Below the pieces are notes generated by a model. The model was not told the DNA's origin and did no database searches. It saw nothing but the letters and a program-made list of their open reading frames with translations. Positions 18,151 through 56,583 of a DNA stretch of 64,000 nucleotides are shown here, one piece after another; position 1 is the first letter of the stretch; the number at the start of each line of letters is the position of its first letter. The DNA is taken from assembly GCF_000422305.1 (NCBI RefSeq), contig NZ_AULN01000017.1:62001-126000 (forward strand), written 5' to 3'. This stretch comes from Luteimonas mephitis DSM 12574. GTDB taxonomy: Bacteria; Pseudomonadota; Gammaproteobacteria; Xanthomonadales; Xanthomonadaceae. Both the position numbers and the translations under genes were made by a program.

Positions 18151-18393
18151 CTCCAGCACCAGCAGCGGATCCACGCGCACGTCGAACCGCGCCCCGTGAT
18201 CCACGGGGGGCAGTGATGATGAACGCGCCGCAGCGCGCCGTGAAACGAACCGCCGTTGCCTACTGCGTGCGCTCCAGCACCAGCAGCGGATCCACGCGCA
18301 CGTCGAACCGCGCCCCCGTGACCCACGGGTGGCAGTGATGATGAACGCGCCGCAGCGCGCCGCGAAACGAACCGCCGTCGCCTACTGCGTCCG
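18151..18393 (-). pseudogene. Two degenerate tandem copies of the M23 peptidase 3' end (~122-bp unit)
   Basis: The block CTCCAGCACCAGCAGCGGAT occurs at 18151, 18272 and 18394; the last is the true end of the M23 gene. Each ~122-bp unit carries, on the minus strand, a remnant reading (GA)RFDVRVDPLLVLE(RTQ) plus the downstream intergenic DNA. The copies retain an HCHP-WVTGARFD string resembling the usual HLHWG-V-W--ARFDVRVDP C-terminus of such peptidases. They lie after the functional stop and have no start, so they are non-coding relics of unequal recombination. 18036-18150 holds nothing else but a REP half-element. Confidence 0.75.
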
Positions 18394-19215
18394 CTCCAGC
18401 ACCAGCAGCGGATCCACGCGAATGTCGAACCAGTTCATCCCCCAATGCAGATGCGGCCCCGTCGCCCGCCCGGTCGCGCCGACCGCCCCGACCACCTGCC
18501 CCTGCGCCACCCGGTCGCCGACCTTCACGTCGATCCGCGACAGGTGCAGGAAATTCGAACTCACCCCATGGCCGTGGTCGATCAGCAGGGTGCCGCCGGT
18601 GAGGTAGAGGTCCGGGTCGGCGAACGTCACCACGCCCGCGGCCGGTGCCTGCACCGGCGTCCCGGTCGGCACCGCGATGTCCATGCCCGAATGTCCCGCG
18701 CCGGGCTGGCCGTTGTAAACGCGGCCGCTGCCGAAGCGGCCGCTGATGCGTCCGCGCACCGGCCAGGTGAACGGCGCTGCGAAATCGGCGCGGTCGTCGT
18801 CGCGGGCGCGCGCTGCCGTCACCCGGGCCTGCTCGCGGCGGATGCGCTCGGCGATCGCCGGCGGCGGATTCACGGTCTTCGGCGGCACGCCGTCGACGCG
18901 CTCAAGCGGCCAGTCGCGCGCGTTCACCGCGATGCTTTCGGCTGTCCTCGTGCCATCTGCGCGAAGTACCTCCAGTCGCAGCGGCCCGGCTTCCTGCCGA
19001 TCCACGCCGAAGACAACGGTGCCGTAGGACGTCGGCCGCAATTCGCGGCCCGCGTAGCGCACCACGCTGCCGGCCGGCACCTTGCCGAATACCAGCGCGC
19101 CTTGCGACACACTGGCGGGAAACACGATGCGGTCGCCGCCAGCGGCGCCCTGCGCGGATGCGCTGCCGGCCGCGCCAAGCGCAAGGACGCATGCCAGCGT
19201 TTGCAGCAAGCGCAT
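18382..19215 (-). CDS. M23-family (LytM-type) zinc peptidase, secreted
   Basis: A 277-residue secreted protein with a signal peptide (MRLLQTLACVLALGAAGSASAQ). The C-terminal LytM/M23 domain spans ~145-270: GHSGMDIAVP (His175, Asp179), NFLHLSRI (His224) and GPHLHWG (His255, His257) supply all metal and catalytic residues, so it should be an active peptidoglycan endopeptidase. The N-terminal ~110 residues form a beta-rich domain seen in Xanthomonadaceae homologues. Its ATG overlaps the pyrC stop by one base (TGATG). The C-terminus FDIRVDPLLVLERTQ is repeated downstream as relic copies. Confidence 0.88.
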   Translation of the reverse strand: MRLLQTLACVLALGAAGSASAQGAAGGDRIVFPASVSQGALVFGKVPAGSVVRYAGRELRPTSYGTVVFGVDRQEAGPLRLEVLRADGTRTAESIAVNARDWPLERVDGVPPKTVNPPPAIAERIRREQARVTAARARDDDRADFAAPFTWPVRGRISGRFGSGRVYNGQPGAGHSGMDIAVPTGTPVQAPAAGVVTFADPDLYLTGGTLLIDHGHGVSSNFLHLSRIDVKVGDRVAQGQVVGAVGATGRATGPHLHWGMNWFDIRVDPLLVLERTQ

Positions 19216-27388: not shown

Positions 27389-27501
27389 AAGCCTCCGGCC
27401 CCTTCTTTCGCCTTCGAAACAACTTTCCATGGATATCCCCATGTCGCCGCAATCCGCTTCATCCAATCCCCAATCCCCGACCCCCAATCCCGGCTCCACC
27501 G
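27356..27501. repeat. Inverted pair of heptanucleotide blocks overlapping argF' 3' and argG 5' ends
   Basis: GGGATTCGGGATTGGGGATC at the end of argF' faces CCAATCCCCAATCCCCGACC inside the first codons of argG. Both are translated, as DSGLGIGDS and [11 protein letters not shown]. Confidence 0.75.
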
Positions 27502-33037: not shown

Positions 33038-33065
33038 GGGATTGGGGATTGGGGATTGGGGATTG
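33038..33065. repeat. (GGGATTG)4 tandem repeat
   Basis: Four perfect copies of GGGATTG begin 6 bp after the argC stop. Facing units of opposite sense follow at 33161-33209. Confidence 0.9.
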
Positions 33066-33100
33066 GGAAGAGCCAGGGCAGAACAGCATTCCCAGAATCT

Positions 33101-33209
33101 CTTATCCCTTATCCCTTATCCCTTATCCCTATATCCCTATATCCCTATATCCCTATATCCCGAATCCCGAATCCCGAATCCCGAATCCCGAATCCCGAAT
33201 CCCGAATCC
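33101..33209. repeat. Compound tandem repeat: (CTTATCC)4 (CTATATCC)4 (CGAATCC)7
   Basis: Three perfect arrays are joined end to end: 4 x 7 bp at 33101-33128, 4 x 8 bp at 33129-33160 and 7 x 7 bp at 33161-33209. The last array ends 10 bp before the argH ATG. Twenty-one bases of CGAATCC encode NPESRIP, and the frame is open into argH. Exact copy number makes slippage likely. Confidence 0.95.
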
Positions 33210-33219
33210 CGAGAAAGCC

Positions 33220-34527
33220 ATGTCCGATTTGCTCTGGCAGAAACCCGGCGTCGCCGTCGACACGCAGATCCAGGCCTTCCTGGCCGGCGACGACGTGATC
33301 CTGGACCGCGAGTTCTTCCTCCACGACATCGCGGCCAGCCGCGCGCATGCCGAAGGGCTGCAGCATCTCGGCATCCTCGACACCGGCGCGCTGGATGACA
33401 TCGCGCGCGAGCTCGCGGTGCTCGCCGATGACTTCCGCAGCGGCACCTTCGTGCTCGACGAACGCTTCGAGGACGGGCACTCGGCGATCGAGGCGCGCCT
33501 GGTCGAACGCCTCGGCGACACCGGCCGGCGCATCCACACCGGCCGCAGCCGCAACGACCAGGTGCTGGTCGCCACGCGACTTTGGCTGAAGGAGAAGCTG
33601 GCCCGCACGCAGGCGATGTGCATCGAAACCGCGGACGTCGCCCTGCGGCGCGCGCGCGCCGAGGCCGACGTGCCGCTGCCCGGCTACACCCACCTGCAGC
33701 GCGCCGTGGTGTCGTCGCTGGGGATGTGGTGGGGCGCGTGGGCCGAGGCGTTCATCGACAACGCGACGCGCGCCCGGGACACCGCGGCCTGGATCGACGC
33801 CAACCCGCTCGGCAGCGCCGCCGGCTACGGCGTCAACCTGGCGCTGGACCGCGACCACACCACCGCCGCGCTCGGCTTCGCGCGCATGCAGGTCTCGCCG
33901 CCGTACGCGCAGCTTTCGCGCGGCAAGTTCGAGCTGGCCGCGCTCGAAGCACTCGGCAGCGCGATGCTCGACCTGCGCCGCGTGGCCTGGGACCTGAGCC
34001 TGTTCACCAGCGCCGAGTTCGGCTTCGTCGCGCTTCCCGCGCAGTACACCACCGGCAGCTCGATCATGCCCAACAAGCGCAACCCCGACGTGATCGAACT
34101 GATGCGCGCGACCTACGCCAGCGTTGCCGCCGCGCGCTGCGAGATCGAGCAGCTGCTGTCGCTGCCATCGGGTTACCACCGCGACCTGCAGGTGTCGAAG
34201 GGCGCGCTGTTCCACGGCTTCGGCAAGGGCCTGCAGGCGCTGGCGCTGCTGCCCGACCTGCTGCGCAACCTGGAATGGAAGCCCGAGCGCATGCGCGCCG
34301 CGCTGGAGCCGTCGATGTATGCCACCGATCTTGCGGTGGAGATGGCGAAGGACGGCGTGCCGTTCCGCGACGCCTATCGCCAGGCCGCCGACCCTGCGCG
34401 CTGGGCGGCGGGCGATCCCGCCGCGAGCCTCGCCATGCGCACCTCACCCGGCGCGGCAGGCGACCTGCGGCTGGACGAACTGGGTGCCCGGCTGGCAGCC
34501 CTGAGTACCGGCGAAACCGCCGCGTAG
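33220..34527 (+). CDS. argH: Argininosuccinate lyase
   Basis: ArgH splits argininosuccinate into arginine and fumarate. The 435-residue protein belongs to the fumarase/aspartase superfamily, with [10 protein letters not shown] (~106-115), YTHLQRAV, and the signature [12 protein letters not shown] at 279-290 containing the catalytic Ser281. The ATG at 33220 follows GAGAAAGCC; the frame runs open further upstream through the CGAATCC repeats (NPESRIP heptads), so an extended form cannot be excluded but is unlikely. Its TAG stop is the first TAG of a family A repeat. This ends the arg operon. Confidence 0.97.
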
Positions 34528-34552
34528 GAGCGCCCCACGGGCGCGACCGGGC
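34524..34552. repeat. REP-like half-element, family A
   Basis: GTAGGAGCGCCCCACGGGCG follows from the argH stop codon. 34553-34724 beyond it shows no clear gene. Confidence 0.65.
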
Positions 34553-34724
34553 TTCACCGGAAAGCCATCGCCCGGTTCAAGCCGCGCTGCAAGGCAGCGT
34601 CGGCTTGAATGAATTGCCGGGACGTGGCGTGGACCGGAACCGGCGCCGGGTGGAACGGCACGAGGGCCACCGGCCGGCCGCGCGAAACCCGGGCGGATGA
34701 GACTCTGGAACGCACCGGCCGGGG

Positions 34725-35015
34725 AAGAAGACTCATGGATGAGTCCCCAGGCGTCGCCGCCGAGCCAGAAAGTCTCACGCATGAGGCTCCGGGACTCACG
34801 CACGAGGCAAAAAGTCTCGCGCATTAGGAGAAAAGTCTCAGGCATGAGGTAAAAAGTCTCACGCGTGAGACTTCAAGGCTCACGGATGAGGAAAAAAGTC
34901 TCGCGCATGAGGAGAAAAGTCTCACGCATGAGGAAAAAAGCCTCGCGCATGAGGAAAAAAGCCTCGCGCGTGAGGGAAGAAGCCTCACGCACCAGGCTCC
35001 GTGGCTCATCGCCGG
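34725..35015. repeat. 21-bp tandem array with phased A-tracts and palindromic cores
   Basis: Units of the type AAAAAAGTCTCACGCATGAGG recur at an exact 21-bp spacing. The CTC anchor is at 34774, 34795, 34816, 34837, 34858, 34879, 34900, 34921, 34942, 34963, 34984 and 35005; a diverged unit is at 34732. Each core is an inverted repeat (CTCACGC/TGAG; perfect CTCACGCGTGAG in one unit), and A-tracts of 4-6 bases alternate with it. No indels disturb the period. It lies between the convergent ends of argH and an MFS gene. Neither strand has a convincing gene, though both have open frames with 7-residue periodicity. Confidence 0.9.
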
Positions 35016-35124
35016 CTTGGAACCGTCAGCACAAGAGGCTGGAAAGCCCGGAACCGGAGGCCCGGGCGCCGAAACACCCCATCAAGCGTCCTGGCGCGCC
35101 AAGGCGGCGCTCCTGCGCCGGGCA

Positions 35125-36387
35125 TCACCACGCGTCTTCCAGCACCCGCGGCTTGCACGCCTGCCAGCCGCCGACCACCATCACCACCACGCTTGCCGCG
35201 AGCATCGCGAACGGCCATGCCCAGCCGCCGGTGGCTTCGTGCAGCACGCCGAACAGCACCGGCCCCAGGCTCGCCAGCGCGTAGCCCACGCCCTGCATGA
35301 AGCCCGACAGCGACGCCGAGCCGCCCGGCGTGCGCGTGCGCAGGTTGATCAGGGTCAGGCCGAGCGGAAACGTGCTGGGGCCAAGCCCGACCAGCGGCAC
35401 CCACAGTAGCGGCGCGGCCATCGGTGCGAGCAGCAGGCCGGCAAAGCCGCCGAAGTGGCAGGCGGCGCAGGCCAGCACCAGCGGAAACGGATTCGCCACG
35501 CGCACCGCCAGCGCCGGGATCGTCAGCGCACTCACCAGCCCCAGCGCCGAATACAGCGCCACCATCGCGCCGCCGAACGCAGGCGTGGCGCCGGCTTCGG
35601 TGAGGATCTTCGGCAGCCAGGTGAACATCGAATACGTCGCCAGCGACGTCATGCCGAACATCAACGCCATGCCCCAGCCCAGCGAGGTGCGCCAGACCTT
35701 GCCGCGCGGCGCGGGCGCGGCCAGCTCCGGGGCCTCGTCACCGGCCGCGACGGCGGCATCGTGGCAGCGGGCCAGGCCGGACTCCTTGCGGCGCTCGATC
35801 CACAGCACACCGATCCACGGCAGCGCCGCGGCGATCGCCACCAGTGCCCAGGCGCCCATCGAGATGCGCCAGCCCACCGCCGCGGCCACCGGAACCGCGA
35901 CCAGTGCCGGCAGGATCGTGCCCATCTGCAGCACGGTGATGTAGAGCGTGCTGAGCGTGCCGACGCGATCGGCGAAGTAGCGCTTGACCAGCGGCGGCAG
36001 CACCACGTTGCCGATGCCCATGCCGGCCAGCGCGACGATCGAGCCCAGCAGCAGCCCGCCGGTGCCGCCGGCGAGCGAGCGCAGCACCAGGCCCAGCGCG
36101 GCCAGCGCCATCGACAGCAGCGCGGCGCGTTCGAGCCCGATGCGGTGGGCGATGGCGGGCGTGGCGACGCCGAACACCGCGAACGCAGCGCTCGGCAGCA
36201 TCCCCAGCACACCGGCCATGGTGCCGCCGAAGTCGAACACCCGGCCGAGCTCGTCGAGCAGCGGCGTGATCGAGGTGACCGCGGTGCGCAGGTTCAGCGC
36301 CGACAGCACGATGCCGGCCAGCACCAGCGCGCGGCCTTCCACCAGCCCGGGCCGGGCGGAGGAGGGCTGGGGTGCCTGCGTGCTCAT
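35125..36387 (-). CDS. MFS transporter, CynX/NimT (cyanate-permease-like) family
   Basis: A 420-residue membrane protein with about 12 hydrophobic segments. LVLAGIVLSALNLRTAVTSITPLLDEL at the N-terminus is characteristic of the CynX/NimT/YycB family (cyanate, 2-nitroimidazole). LGPSTFPLGLTLINLRTRTPGGSASLSGFMQGVGYALASLGP near the end is the matching C-terminal block. The central loop (~200-225) is hydrophilic. Substrate unknown. It starts at ATG 36387 and converges on argH, with the 21-bp array between. Confidence 0.88.
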   Translation of the reverse strand: MSTQAPQPSSARPGLVEGRALVLAGIVLSALNLRTAVTSITPLLDELGRVFDFGGTMAGVLGMLPSAAFAVFGVATPAIAHRIGLERAALLSMALAALGLVLRSLAGGTGGLLLGSIVALAGMGIGNVVLPPLVKRYFADRVGTLSTLYITVLQMGTILPALVAVPVAAAVGWRISMGAWALVAIAAALPWIGVLWIERRKESGLARCHDAAVAAGDEAPELAAPAPRGKVWRTSLGWGMALMFGMTSLATYSMFTWLPKILTEAGATPAFGGAMVALYSALGLVSALTIPALAVRVANPFPLVLACAACHFGGFAGLLLAPMAAPLLWVPLVGLGPSTFPLGLTLINLRTRTPGGSASLSGFMQGVGYALASLGPVLFGVLHEATGGWAWPFAMLAASVVVMVVGGWQACKPRVLEDAW

Positions 36388-38118: not shown

Positions 38119-38234
38119 GCAGGAGCGGCTTCAGGCGCGAGCTCCTGGCCTGGCATGGCAGGCTGTTTGCAGGAGCGAGCTCCTGGCCTGGCATGGCAGG
38201 CTGTTTGCAGGAGCGAGGGAAGCCGCTCCTGCAG
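38119..38234. repeat. Family A REP-like repeat with a 38-bp internal tandem duplication
   Basis: GCAGGAGCGGCTTCAGGCGC opens and GAAGCCGCTCCTGCAG closes the element. Between them a 38-bp unit containing GAGCTCCTGGCCTGGCATGG is present twice in tandem (38137-38212). Confidence 0.8.
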
Positions 38235-46852: not shown

Positions 46853-47550
46853 GTCGCGACGGGGTCGATGTCGGTGAAGCGCTCCACCCGCGCGTGGCCG
46901 TTCGTCGCGGCGCCGGTGCGCGGTTGCGGGTAATCATCGCGGCGGTCGACCAGCACCGTGCGCATGCCGGCGTCGCGCGCGGCGTCCAGCTCCTCGACCA
47001 CGTCGGACAGGAACAGCACGTCGGCCGGTTCGCGGCCGAGCGAGCGGGCGATGCCGCGGTAGCTGTCCGCCTCGCGCTTGTGGCCGACCGCGGTGTCGAA
47101 GAAGGCATGGAACAGCGGCAGCAGGTCGCCGGCGTCGGAGTTGCCGAACAGCAGCCGCTGCGCCGGCACCGAGCCGGAGGAATACACGGCCAGCGTGTAA
47201 CCGGCCTCGTCCCAGCGACGCAGCGCCTCGACGGCATCGGGATACACCGGCGCGGTGAAATCGCGGCTGCGGTAGCCGGCCTCCCAGACCATGCCCTGCA
47301 GCGCCTTGAGCGCAGTGTGCTTGCGGTCCTGGTCGATCCAGCCCTGCAGCGTTTCGACGATCATCGAGTCCTGGCACATGCCGCCGTTTTCCATGGCGAC
47401 CTGGTCCAGCCAGTGGCGCACCTGCGGCTCGCTTCCGCGTGCGCGCACGAAGCCGGGCAGGGCCTGGCGGGCATAGGGGAACAGCACGTCCTTGACGAAG
47501 GAAATGCTGCTGGTGGTGCCTTCGATGTCGGTGAGGATGACGGGTTTCAT
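46849..47550 (-). CDS. mtnC: Acireductone synthase (enolase-phosphatase E1)
   Basis: MtnC converts 2,3-diketo-5-methylthiopentyl-1-phosphate to acireductone in methionine salvage. The 233-residue HAD protein starts with [23 protein letters not shown], with Asp8 and Glu10 at the active site. [14 protein letters not shown] is motif II and [14 protein letters not shown] the last motif. It lies between mtnD and a C13 peptidase gene on the same strand. Confidence 0.96.
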
Positions 47551-47552
47551 TG

Positions 47553-47590
47553 GGAGCCGGGATTGGGATTCGTGATTCGGGATTCGGAAC
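47553..47590. repeat. GGATTGG/GATTCGG heptanucleotide block
   Basis: GCCGGGATTGGGATTCGTGA continues as TTCGGGATTCGG. It sits just upstream of mtnC. Confidence 0.7.
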
Positions 47591-47643
47591 GAGAGGCCGG
47601 GCGGGATGGGGATGTCGCGTTTCCGGATCCCCGTTGCCGGTTC

Positions 47644-48189
47644 CTACTCCCTGTAGCGCGGGAAGCGCCGGGCGATGTCGGTGCCGGTGAAGTGGCCGAC
47701 CCAGCCGTCCGGCTCGGTGAAGAAGCGGATCGCCACGAAGCTCGGTTCCGGCCCCATGTCGAACCAGTGGGTGGTGCCGTCGGGCACCGCGATCAGGTCG
47801 TCCTTCACGCACTCGATCTCGTAGACCCTGTCGCCCACGTGCAGGGTGAACAGACCGGAGCCGGCGACGAAGAAGCGCACCTCGTCTTCCTTGTGGAAGT
47901 GCTCGTCGAGAAACTTGGCGCGCATTTCCTCGCGCTTGGGATTGTCAGGCGCAATGCTGACCACATCCACCGACTTGAAGCCGCGCTCGGCGACGAGCCG
48001 GTCGATGTCCGCGCGATAGGCGGCCATTACATCCTCCGCACTGGCGCCGGGCGCGATCGGCTGCGCGGCCTGCCAGCGTTCGAAGGTGACGCCGATCTCC
48101 TGCAGCTCGCGGGCGATCGCGTCGCCGTCGCTGCTGTCGAACTCGGGAGTGTCGGGGGCGTTCTCGGCAAAGATGCGCAGGCGGCTCAT
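47644..48189 (-). CDS. mtnD: Acireductone dioxygenase
   Basis: MtnD oxidises acireductone to the 2-keto precursor of methionine (with Fe) or to an off-pathway product (with Ni). The 181-residue cupin has the metal ligands His97, His99 and Glu103 in [13 protein letters not shown] and His141 in TTHWFD. Residues 1-60 include the RFxE-like N-terminal ARD block. Upstream is mtnB, downstream mtnC. Confidence 0.96.
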
Positions 48190-56472: not shown

Positions 56473-56583
56473 GGATTCGGGATTCGGGATTCGGGATTCG
56501 GGATTCGGGATTGGAAGAAGCCGGGTCGGGGCGGGTTGGCGGTCTCTTTCGCGAATCCCCAATCCCCAATCCCCAATCCCGGC
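56473..56583. repeat. Inverted pair of heptanucleotide arrays: (GGATTCG)5 and (CCAATCC)3
   Basis: Five perfect GGATTCG units at 56473-56507, then one GGATTGG, face CGAATCC plus three CCAATCC units at 56552-56580. The two blocks could form one hairpin. They occupy the whole region between efpL and the SDR gene. Confidence 0.9.

Follow-up and report, generated by a model that had tools for sequence, protein, structure and literature searches.

The intergenic DNA between two genes in the window (the whole stretch of 64,000 nucleotides analysed) holds a head-to-tail array of 21-bp units, which raises the question of whether so regular a structure is used by its host as DNA, as RNA or as protein, or is merely carried. 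We favour, at a probability of roughly 0.42, the reading of the array as a non-coding intergenic DNA satellite that belongs to a dispersed family, is constrained as DNA and probably offers pairs of half-sites to a protein; both this protein and the benefit behind the arrays we infer. Its main rival is a selfish satellite; less probable are an RNA element and translation, each of which has a result in its favour.

Array architecture

Each repeated unit joins a dyad core, CTCR-N4-YGAG, to a 9-bp spacer. The genes on either side of the array are convergent, as originally predicted, and were recognized by their Pfam domains, Lyase_1 for the argH-like gene on the plus strand (E 1.3e-47) and MFS_1 on the minus strand (E 3.5e-17). 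TRF places the array at 34769-34991 with a period of 21, 10.6 copies, a score of 222 and 0% indels, and the periods it returns here are 21 and 84, none being 7. Fifteen 21-bp slots remain in register without an indel from 34690 to 35004, eleven of them (34774-35004) being clear units. The exact core is present in 10 of the 16 slots that start at 21-bp steps from 34690 to 35005, namely the slot at 34732 and nine of the eleven from 34774 to 34984; the slots at 34816 and 34984 each have one arm base of the core changed, and those at 34690, 34711 and 34753 are diverged. The family is defined by at least four CTCR-N4-YGAG cores in exact 21-bp register; across 34837-34984, seven exact cores follow one another. 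The original prediction counted twelve units without an indel; the register is upheld but the count is not, because slot 35005 retains the left arm alone, so that eleven clear units are followed by a half unit. The proposed inverted repeat is likewise borne out by the dyad, though it is imperfect, the core CTCACGCATGAG having 4-bp arms CTCA/TGAG about a non-palindromic CGCA centre. Chance is excluded as the origin of the array, because the pattern of three cores matches the genome of the window six times and its reversed control not once. Elsewhere in the window, a 38-bp repeat of 2.3 copies with a GAGCTC palindrome lies directly after the histidyl-tRNA synthetase gene (38132-38217), and a 122-bp direct repeat of 2.3 copies with 95% matches by TRF lies at 18151-18431.

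Table 1. Features at and around the array, in window coordinates.
Feature	Coordinates	Strand	Remarks
argH-like gene	33220..34527	+	Frame tested from 33214; 33220 is the first ATG, the start codon being our reading
Similarity to the second copy	34627..35095	.	34627-34954, 73.8% over 328 bp; 34693-35095, 66.7% over 403 bp; overlapping registers
Tail and first units, gap-free alignment to the second copy (L052 5135-5238)	34682..34785	-	104 bp with 18 differences, six at each codon position of the best frame; contains the 23-mer common to both copies
Diverged slots (four), in register with the clear units	34690..34773	.	Exact core at 34732
Eleven clear 21-bp units, core CTCRNNNNYGAG and 9-bp spacer	34774..35004	.	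9 of 11 cores exact
Spacers of the clear units	34774..35004		A-rich on the plus strand, T-rich on the minus strand
Terminator-like hairpin of adjacent units, then T-run	34966..34992	-	1, against 1.3 in shuffles
Terminal half unit	35005..35016	.	Left arm alone
MFS transporter gene	35125..36387	-	Convergent to argH

Distribution of related arrays

A second, diverged array in the same genome (G000:C1:195839-196190) is flanked by an AcrB-family frame and, at its opposite end, by tRNA-Lys and queC, and the window array matches it at 73.8% identity over 328 bp, the common tail included. Related non-coding arrays, which define a dispersed satellite, therefore occur at separate sites of this genome. 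A 23-mer identical in both tails has no match in the other 296 of the 297 family genomes with up to three mismatches allowed. Searching by DNA similarity with the array gave no match in 60 relatives; plain similarity fails because the units diverge, and the pattern of core and register was used instead. Three CTCN6GAG cores at 9-bp gaps were then found in 8 of the 297 family genomes, from 7 of 54 genera, with none for the reversed control, and a contig of Luteimonas weifangensis (L167) has the same array as G140:C41. Three genomes of the window's genus (G016, G355 and G362) keep the convergent gene pair with protein alignments 64, 94 and 70 bp apart, compared with 600 bp in the window; these gaps are too short for an array, which is thus absent from the junction and dispensable there. 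In two further genomes (G007 and G019), about 1.1 kb of other DNA separates the argH and MFS alignments, and that of G007 contains no core. For relatives whose locus lies on the minus strand, the absence of the array is taken from the similarity search.

Outside the family, scanning the genomes of named species for four cores yielded at least 112 stretches, many of them in Nostocales. Overlapping three-core matches number 3-169 in each of twelve genomes with such loci, the controls giving 0 except for 1 and 3 in two genomes, and 19-169 in each of ten cyanobacterial genomes. The strict CTCR/YGAG pattern was found in 4 of 146 genomes from the phylum of Calothrix brevissima NIES-22, that genome included, and its control in none. 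Between related genomes, arrays are gained or lost and their length changes in steps of one unit or more: orthologous arrays persist across species with sizes shifted by whole units (1056 and 1077 bp in L108 and L141), and where strain CHAB 5715 has 14 units, the same site in CHAB 5714 has 667 bp of other DNA between flanks that are 94.5-96.1% identical. At this intergenic site of two close Nostoc strains, the array lies at L249 2817-3157 and the other DNA at L250 2593-3259. A plasmid search using a Nostoc array, in which low-complexity filtering may mask matches, found none. A partition site fits the arrays poorly, because there are several per cyanobacterial genome and none at the junction in the three congeners. 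Several Nostoc 21-bp arrays adjoin G-rich heptamer runs, and in L078, L095 and L163 such runs on one side face their C-rich complement on the other, forming a larger inverted repeat. Two further 21-bp arrays of a Bacteroidetes MAG (L087, 1240-1404 and 5501-5794) have other palindromic units (GTTCGGAAC and AAGTTTGGTAAACTT, TRF consensus), and palindromic 21-bp arrays with other codes may therefore exist.

Constraint on register and sequence

Successive family cores no more than 70 bp apart in 46 loci are spaced by 21 bp in 397 cases, by 42 bp in 30 and by 63 bp in 5, and by no other distance, although these spacings are not independent events since units copied from one another share them. With the gap left free from 0 to 30, there were 317 matches, and the 75 listed from the plus strand all lie at 21 or 42 (hand count). 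A variable unit length in relatives, which would have told against the original prediction, is not seen, the core spacing always being a multiple of 21 bp in the loci examined. The core register is kept also in the 6 of 78 arrays that contain spacers of both orientations. Orientation was assigned for 50 of 116 arrays, those with at least eight units and at least 60% family cores, and the shuffle test was made on 47 of these (605 units), L075, L131 and L158 being dropped. A symmetric conservation profile of the units was rejected as an artefact of mixed array orientation.

Orthologous arrays at six loci differ at 18 of 438 sites in the arms, 110 of 438 in the core interiors and 96 of 657 in the spacers, a contrast between arms and interiors that is inflated because the arrays were found by their arms. 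As the search required the arms, only positions such as 15, in the spacer, escape this bias; position 15 differs in none of 73 orthologous unit pairs and is T at 0.99 in the cyanobacterial profile. In the 47 oriented arrays this position is also the T that ends 445 of 471 four-fold codons of slot 5, while the residue varies. The conservation of the arms and of some spacer bases acts on the nucleotides themselves. Combinations at positions 4 and 9 occur about as often as expected (GC 249 against 243.5, GT 122 against 123.8, AC 43 against 47.5 and AT 25 against 24.2); these positions are independently purine and pyrimidine, as separate half-sites would predict and base pairing would not. The half-site, ANMCTCR, is present on both strands, with A at -3 at 0.92 and A or C at -1 at 0.93 in cyanobacteria, and is weaker in the family of the window (0.46 and 0.77 respectively).

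The simplest reading of the fixed arms, the independent R and Y, the strand-neutral placement and the two-turn register is a row of dimeric sites along duplex DNA. A dimeric DNA-binding protein would find two half-sites in each unit, one on either strand and each approximately 5'-ANMCTCR-3', and all the dimers would lie on one helical face, because 21 bp is two turns of the helix. Loaded with such a row of protein at an intergenic site where genes end, the array might act as a local architectural or insulating element, with unit duplication and recombination spreading and re-homogenizing it. The third-position excess among cyanobacterial orthologues, considered below with translation, argues against a DNA site, since a symmetric site does not predict such an excess.

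Do the arrays serve their hosts?

A possible alternative is that the arrays are selfish or neutral satellites generated by slippage, unequal exchange and template switching, whose copying favours a dyad and a fixed length and which have neither host function nor cognate protein. The sporadic occurrence of the arrays, in 8 of the 297 family genomes and 4 of the 146 drawn from the phylum of Calothrix brevissima, would be as expected of such elements, as would the gain or loss between the close strains CHAB 5715 and CHAB 5714, the whole-unit length changes of L108 and L141 and the heptamer repeats that some arrays adjoin. The constraint between species at positions that were not searched for speaks against it, as do the lack of any off-register core spacing in 46 loci and the recurrence of the same code in distant groups.

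To measure this recurrence, arrays were compared with a profile built from 42 cyanobacterial arrays, using the 15 positions that the search pattern leaves free and taking 500 permutations of these positions as the background. Nine of ten arrays from the family of the window match at p<=0.05, or six of seven when counted by genus, rows from one genome or genus not being independent. The p values are 0 (0/500) for both the window array and the second copy, 0 for L035 (two full units only), 0.004 for L037, 0.012 for L044, 0.024 for L039, 0.028 for L167, 0.032 for L038 and 0.048 for L040; L041 is the misfit (p 0.68). Of 38 rows from other phyla 2 fit, Aquimarina (L124) and Nocardia (L143), while 4 of 41 extra cyanobacterial rows do not (L135, L158, L159 and L168; these rows lie outside the profile, some from the same genomes; both hand counts). 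Carriage of the arrays by phage was rejected, as 1 of 27 scored viral-contig arrays fits the profile (28 stretches collected; hand count); the one that fits is at L192 920-994 (p 0.012). The profile match supports a common code in the arrays of cyanobacteria and of the window's family, which may be due to descent, transfer or common function, the likeness between the two consisting of this match alone, with no syntenic or flanking link. It is doubtful whether one may go further and see a single dyad code, with ANMCTCR half-sites in 21-bp phase, that a widespread putative DNA-binding protein would read in both groups, the array then being a reusable insulating or anchoring element spread horizontally.

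RNA, coding and bending

Some room for a role as RNA is left by the pairing across the dyad and the single-strand folding, both above shuffles, yet it is unlikely that hairpins in transcripts through the array terminate or stabilize the messages of the flanking genes. Fold z-scores against shuffles are -6.22 on the plus and -9.25 on the minus strand, but good folding is to be expected of one strand from any palindromic array. Pairing exceeds column shuffles, which ignore relatedness, at positions 1/12 (z 4.2), 6/7 (z 6.5), 4/9 (z 3.1) and 13/21 (z 3.0), whereas positions 4/9 show no covariation in units with intact arms. On the MFS strand, the terminator-like hairpin with its T-run fits such an element, but sites of this kind are no more numerous than in shuffles (Table 1); promoter and terminator scans of the array gave nothing above chance, and no Rfam family reaches threshold in 34400-35200. 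Among 39 arrays with two callable neighbours by crude ORF calls (11 of 50 being excluded as wanting these or lying near the end of the locus), 20 lie between co-directional, 13 between convergent and 6 between divergent genes, and the surplus of convergent over divergent sites would suit such an RNA element. The T-rich strand, though, is sense at 10 and antisense at 10 of the 20 co-directional sites.

That the array encodes a protein of seven-residue repeats with LxxE heptads is very unlikely. In its favour, 21 is a multiple of three, 38 of 50 arrays have an open best frame, compared with 20 for the frame on the other strand, and cyanobacterial orthologues differ at 56, 55 and 113 sites by codon position, a third-position excess in the best frame that falls mainly on unit positions 9, 18 and 6. 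Some pattern matches in other phyla also sit in long open frames resembling coiled-coil genes; many of these bare-pattern matches have that resemblance and were left out of the family. At the locus itself, the open frames proposed for both strands are refuted, all six being interrupted across 34732-34983, four by one stop each and the other two by 9 and 7. Stops in the best frame of the 47 arrays are as frequent as in column shuffles (13, against 16.4 +/- 2.4; 63 of 500 at or below), and C ends 550 of 559 four-fold Leu codons in the 47 oriented arrays (605 units, seed units included). Five array frames did not reach the Pfam cut-off, and the tail of the paralogue differs evenly by codon position (6/6/6). 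A coding minisatellite is rejected for the window on the six-frame stops, the column shuffles, Pfam and the paralogue tail, and this part of the original prediction finds no support there.

Still less probable is that an intrinsically bent segment made by phased A-tracts is the function of the array: AA/TT power at 10.5 bp (0.102) exceeds the maximum of 500 dinucleotide shuffles (0.074), so that the predicted phasing stands for the window, but bending is not the common property of the family, because relatives with the same core and register have spacers without A-tracts (L050 GCTCGGAGC, L053 GTCTGGAAC, L057 GCAAATCGG/CCGCCGGGA). The seven runs of at least four A in the window array start 19-23 or 41 bp apart, and its GC content is 54%, compared with 73% in the flanks.

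Relation to known repeats

A CRISPR array is defined by unique long spacers between its repeats and was rejected here, where the spacers are 9 bp long and several are near-identical. Iterons and partition-site arrays are phased tandem dyads able to seat a row of protein, as those of the 21-bp array could; unlike them, the array is chromosomal, beside argH and the MFS gene, and many such arrays occur per cyanobacterial genome. No description of the 21-bp unit was found in the open-licence PMC literature searched. The extragenic palindromes of REP/BIME elements, as described in the available part of PMC3733652, are similar in kind, but the present array runs head to tail in a 21-bp register; REP/BIME was rejected, 34690-35025 having no GTAG or CTAC and a single CGTC, at 34752, outside the clear units.

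Dispersed non-coding satellites are rare in prokaryotes according to the accessible text of PMC6749651. The Leptospira satellites given there resemble the present family in being non-coding, tandem and present as related arrays at several sites per genome, but consist of 37-69 nt repeats in one species, compared with palindromic 21-bp units that occur in several genera and in no fewer than two phyla; the sequence tables of that source could include arrays like the 21-bp satellite. The present family has 19-169 overlapping matches per genome in ten cyanobacteria, a helically rigid register, constraint on positions that the search did not require and a counterpart in a distant family; with it, experiments on culturable cyanobacteria can ask directly whether the satellites of bacteria are bound and put to use or merely carried.

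Intergenic heptamer repeats are reported, in the portions of the sources available, as GGGNATC in Xanthomonas and Nostoc (PMC4692102) and as TAACTGA in Beggiatoaceae, Cyanobacteria and Bacteroidetes (PMC4679880). The arrays share with them an intergenic tandem arrangement, occurrence in distant bacteria, abundance in Nostoc-type genomes and a unit that is a multiple of 7, but differ from what is described there in the 21-bp length, the dyad core, the variable interior and a register unbroken in the loci examined. A heptamer STRR was rejected on the TRF period of 21, the unit not being 7 bp. Heptamer-type repeats proper (GGGATTG, ATCCCGA, GGATTCG and the like, by TRF) are present in the window at 33038-33212, 47549-47644, 56473-56580 and 27463-27491, and are of the GGGNATC kind known, from the part of PMC4692102 available, in Xanthomonas and Nostoc.
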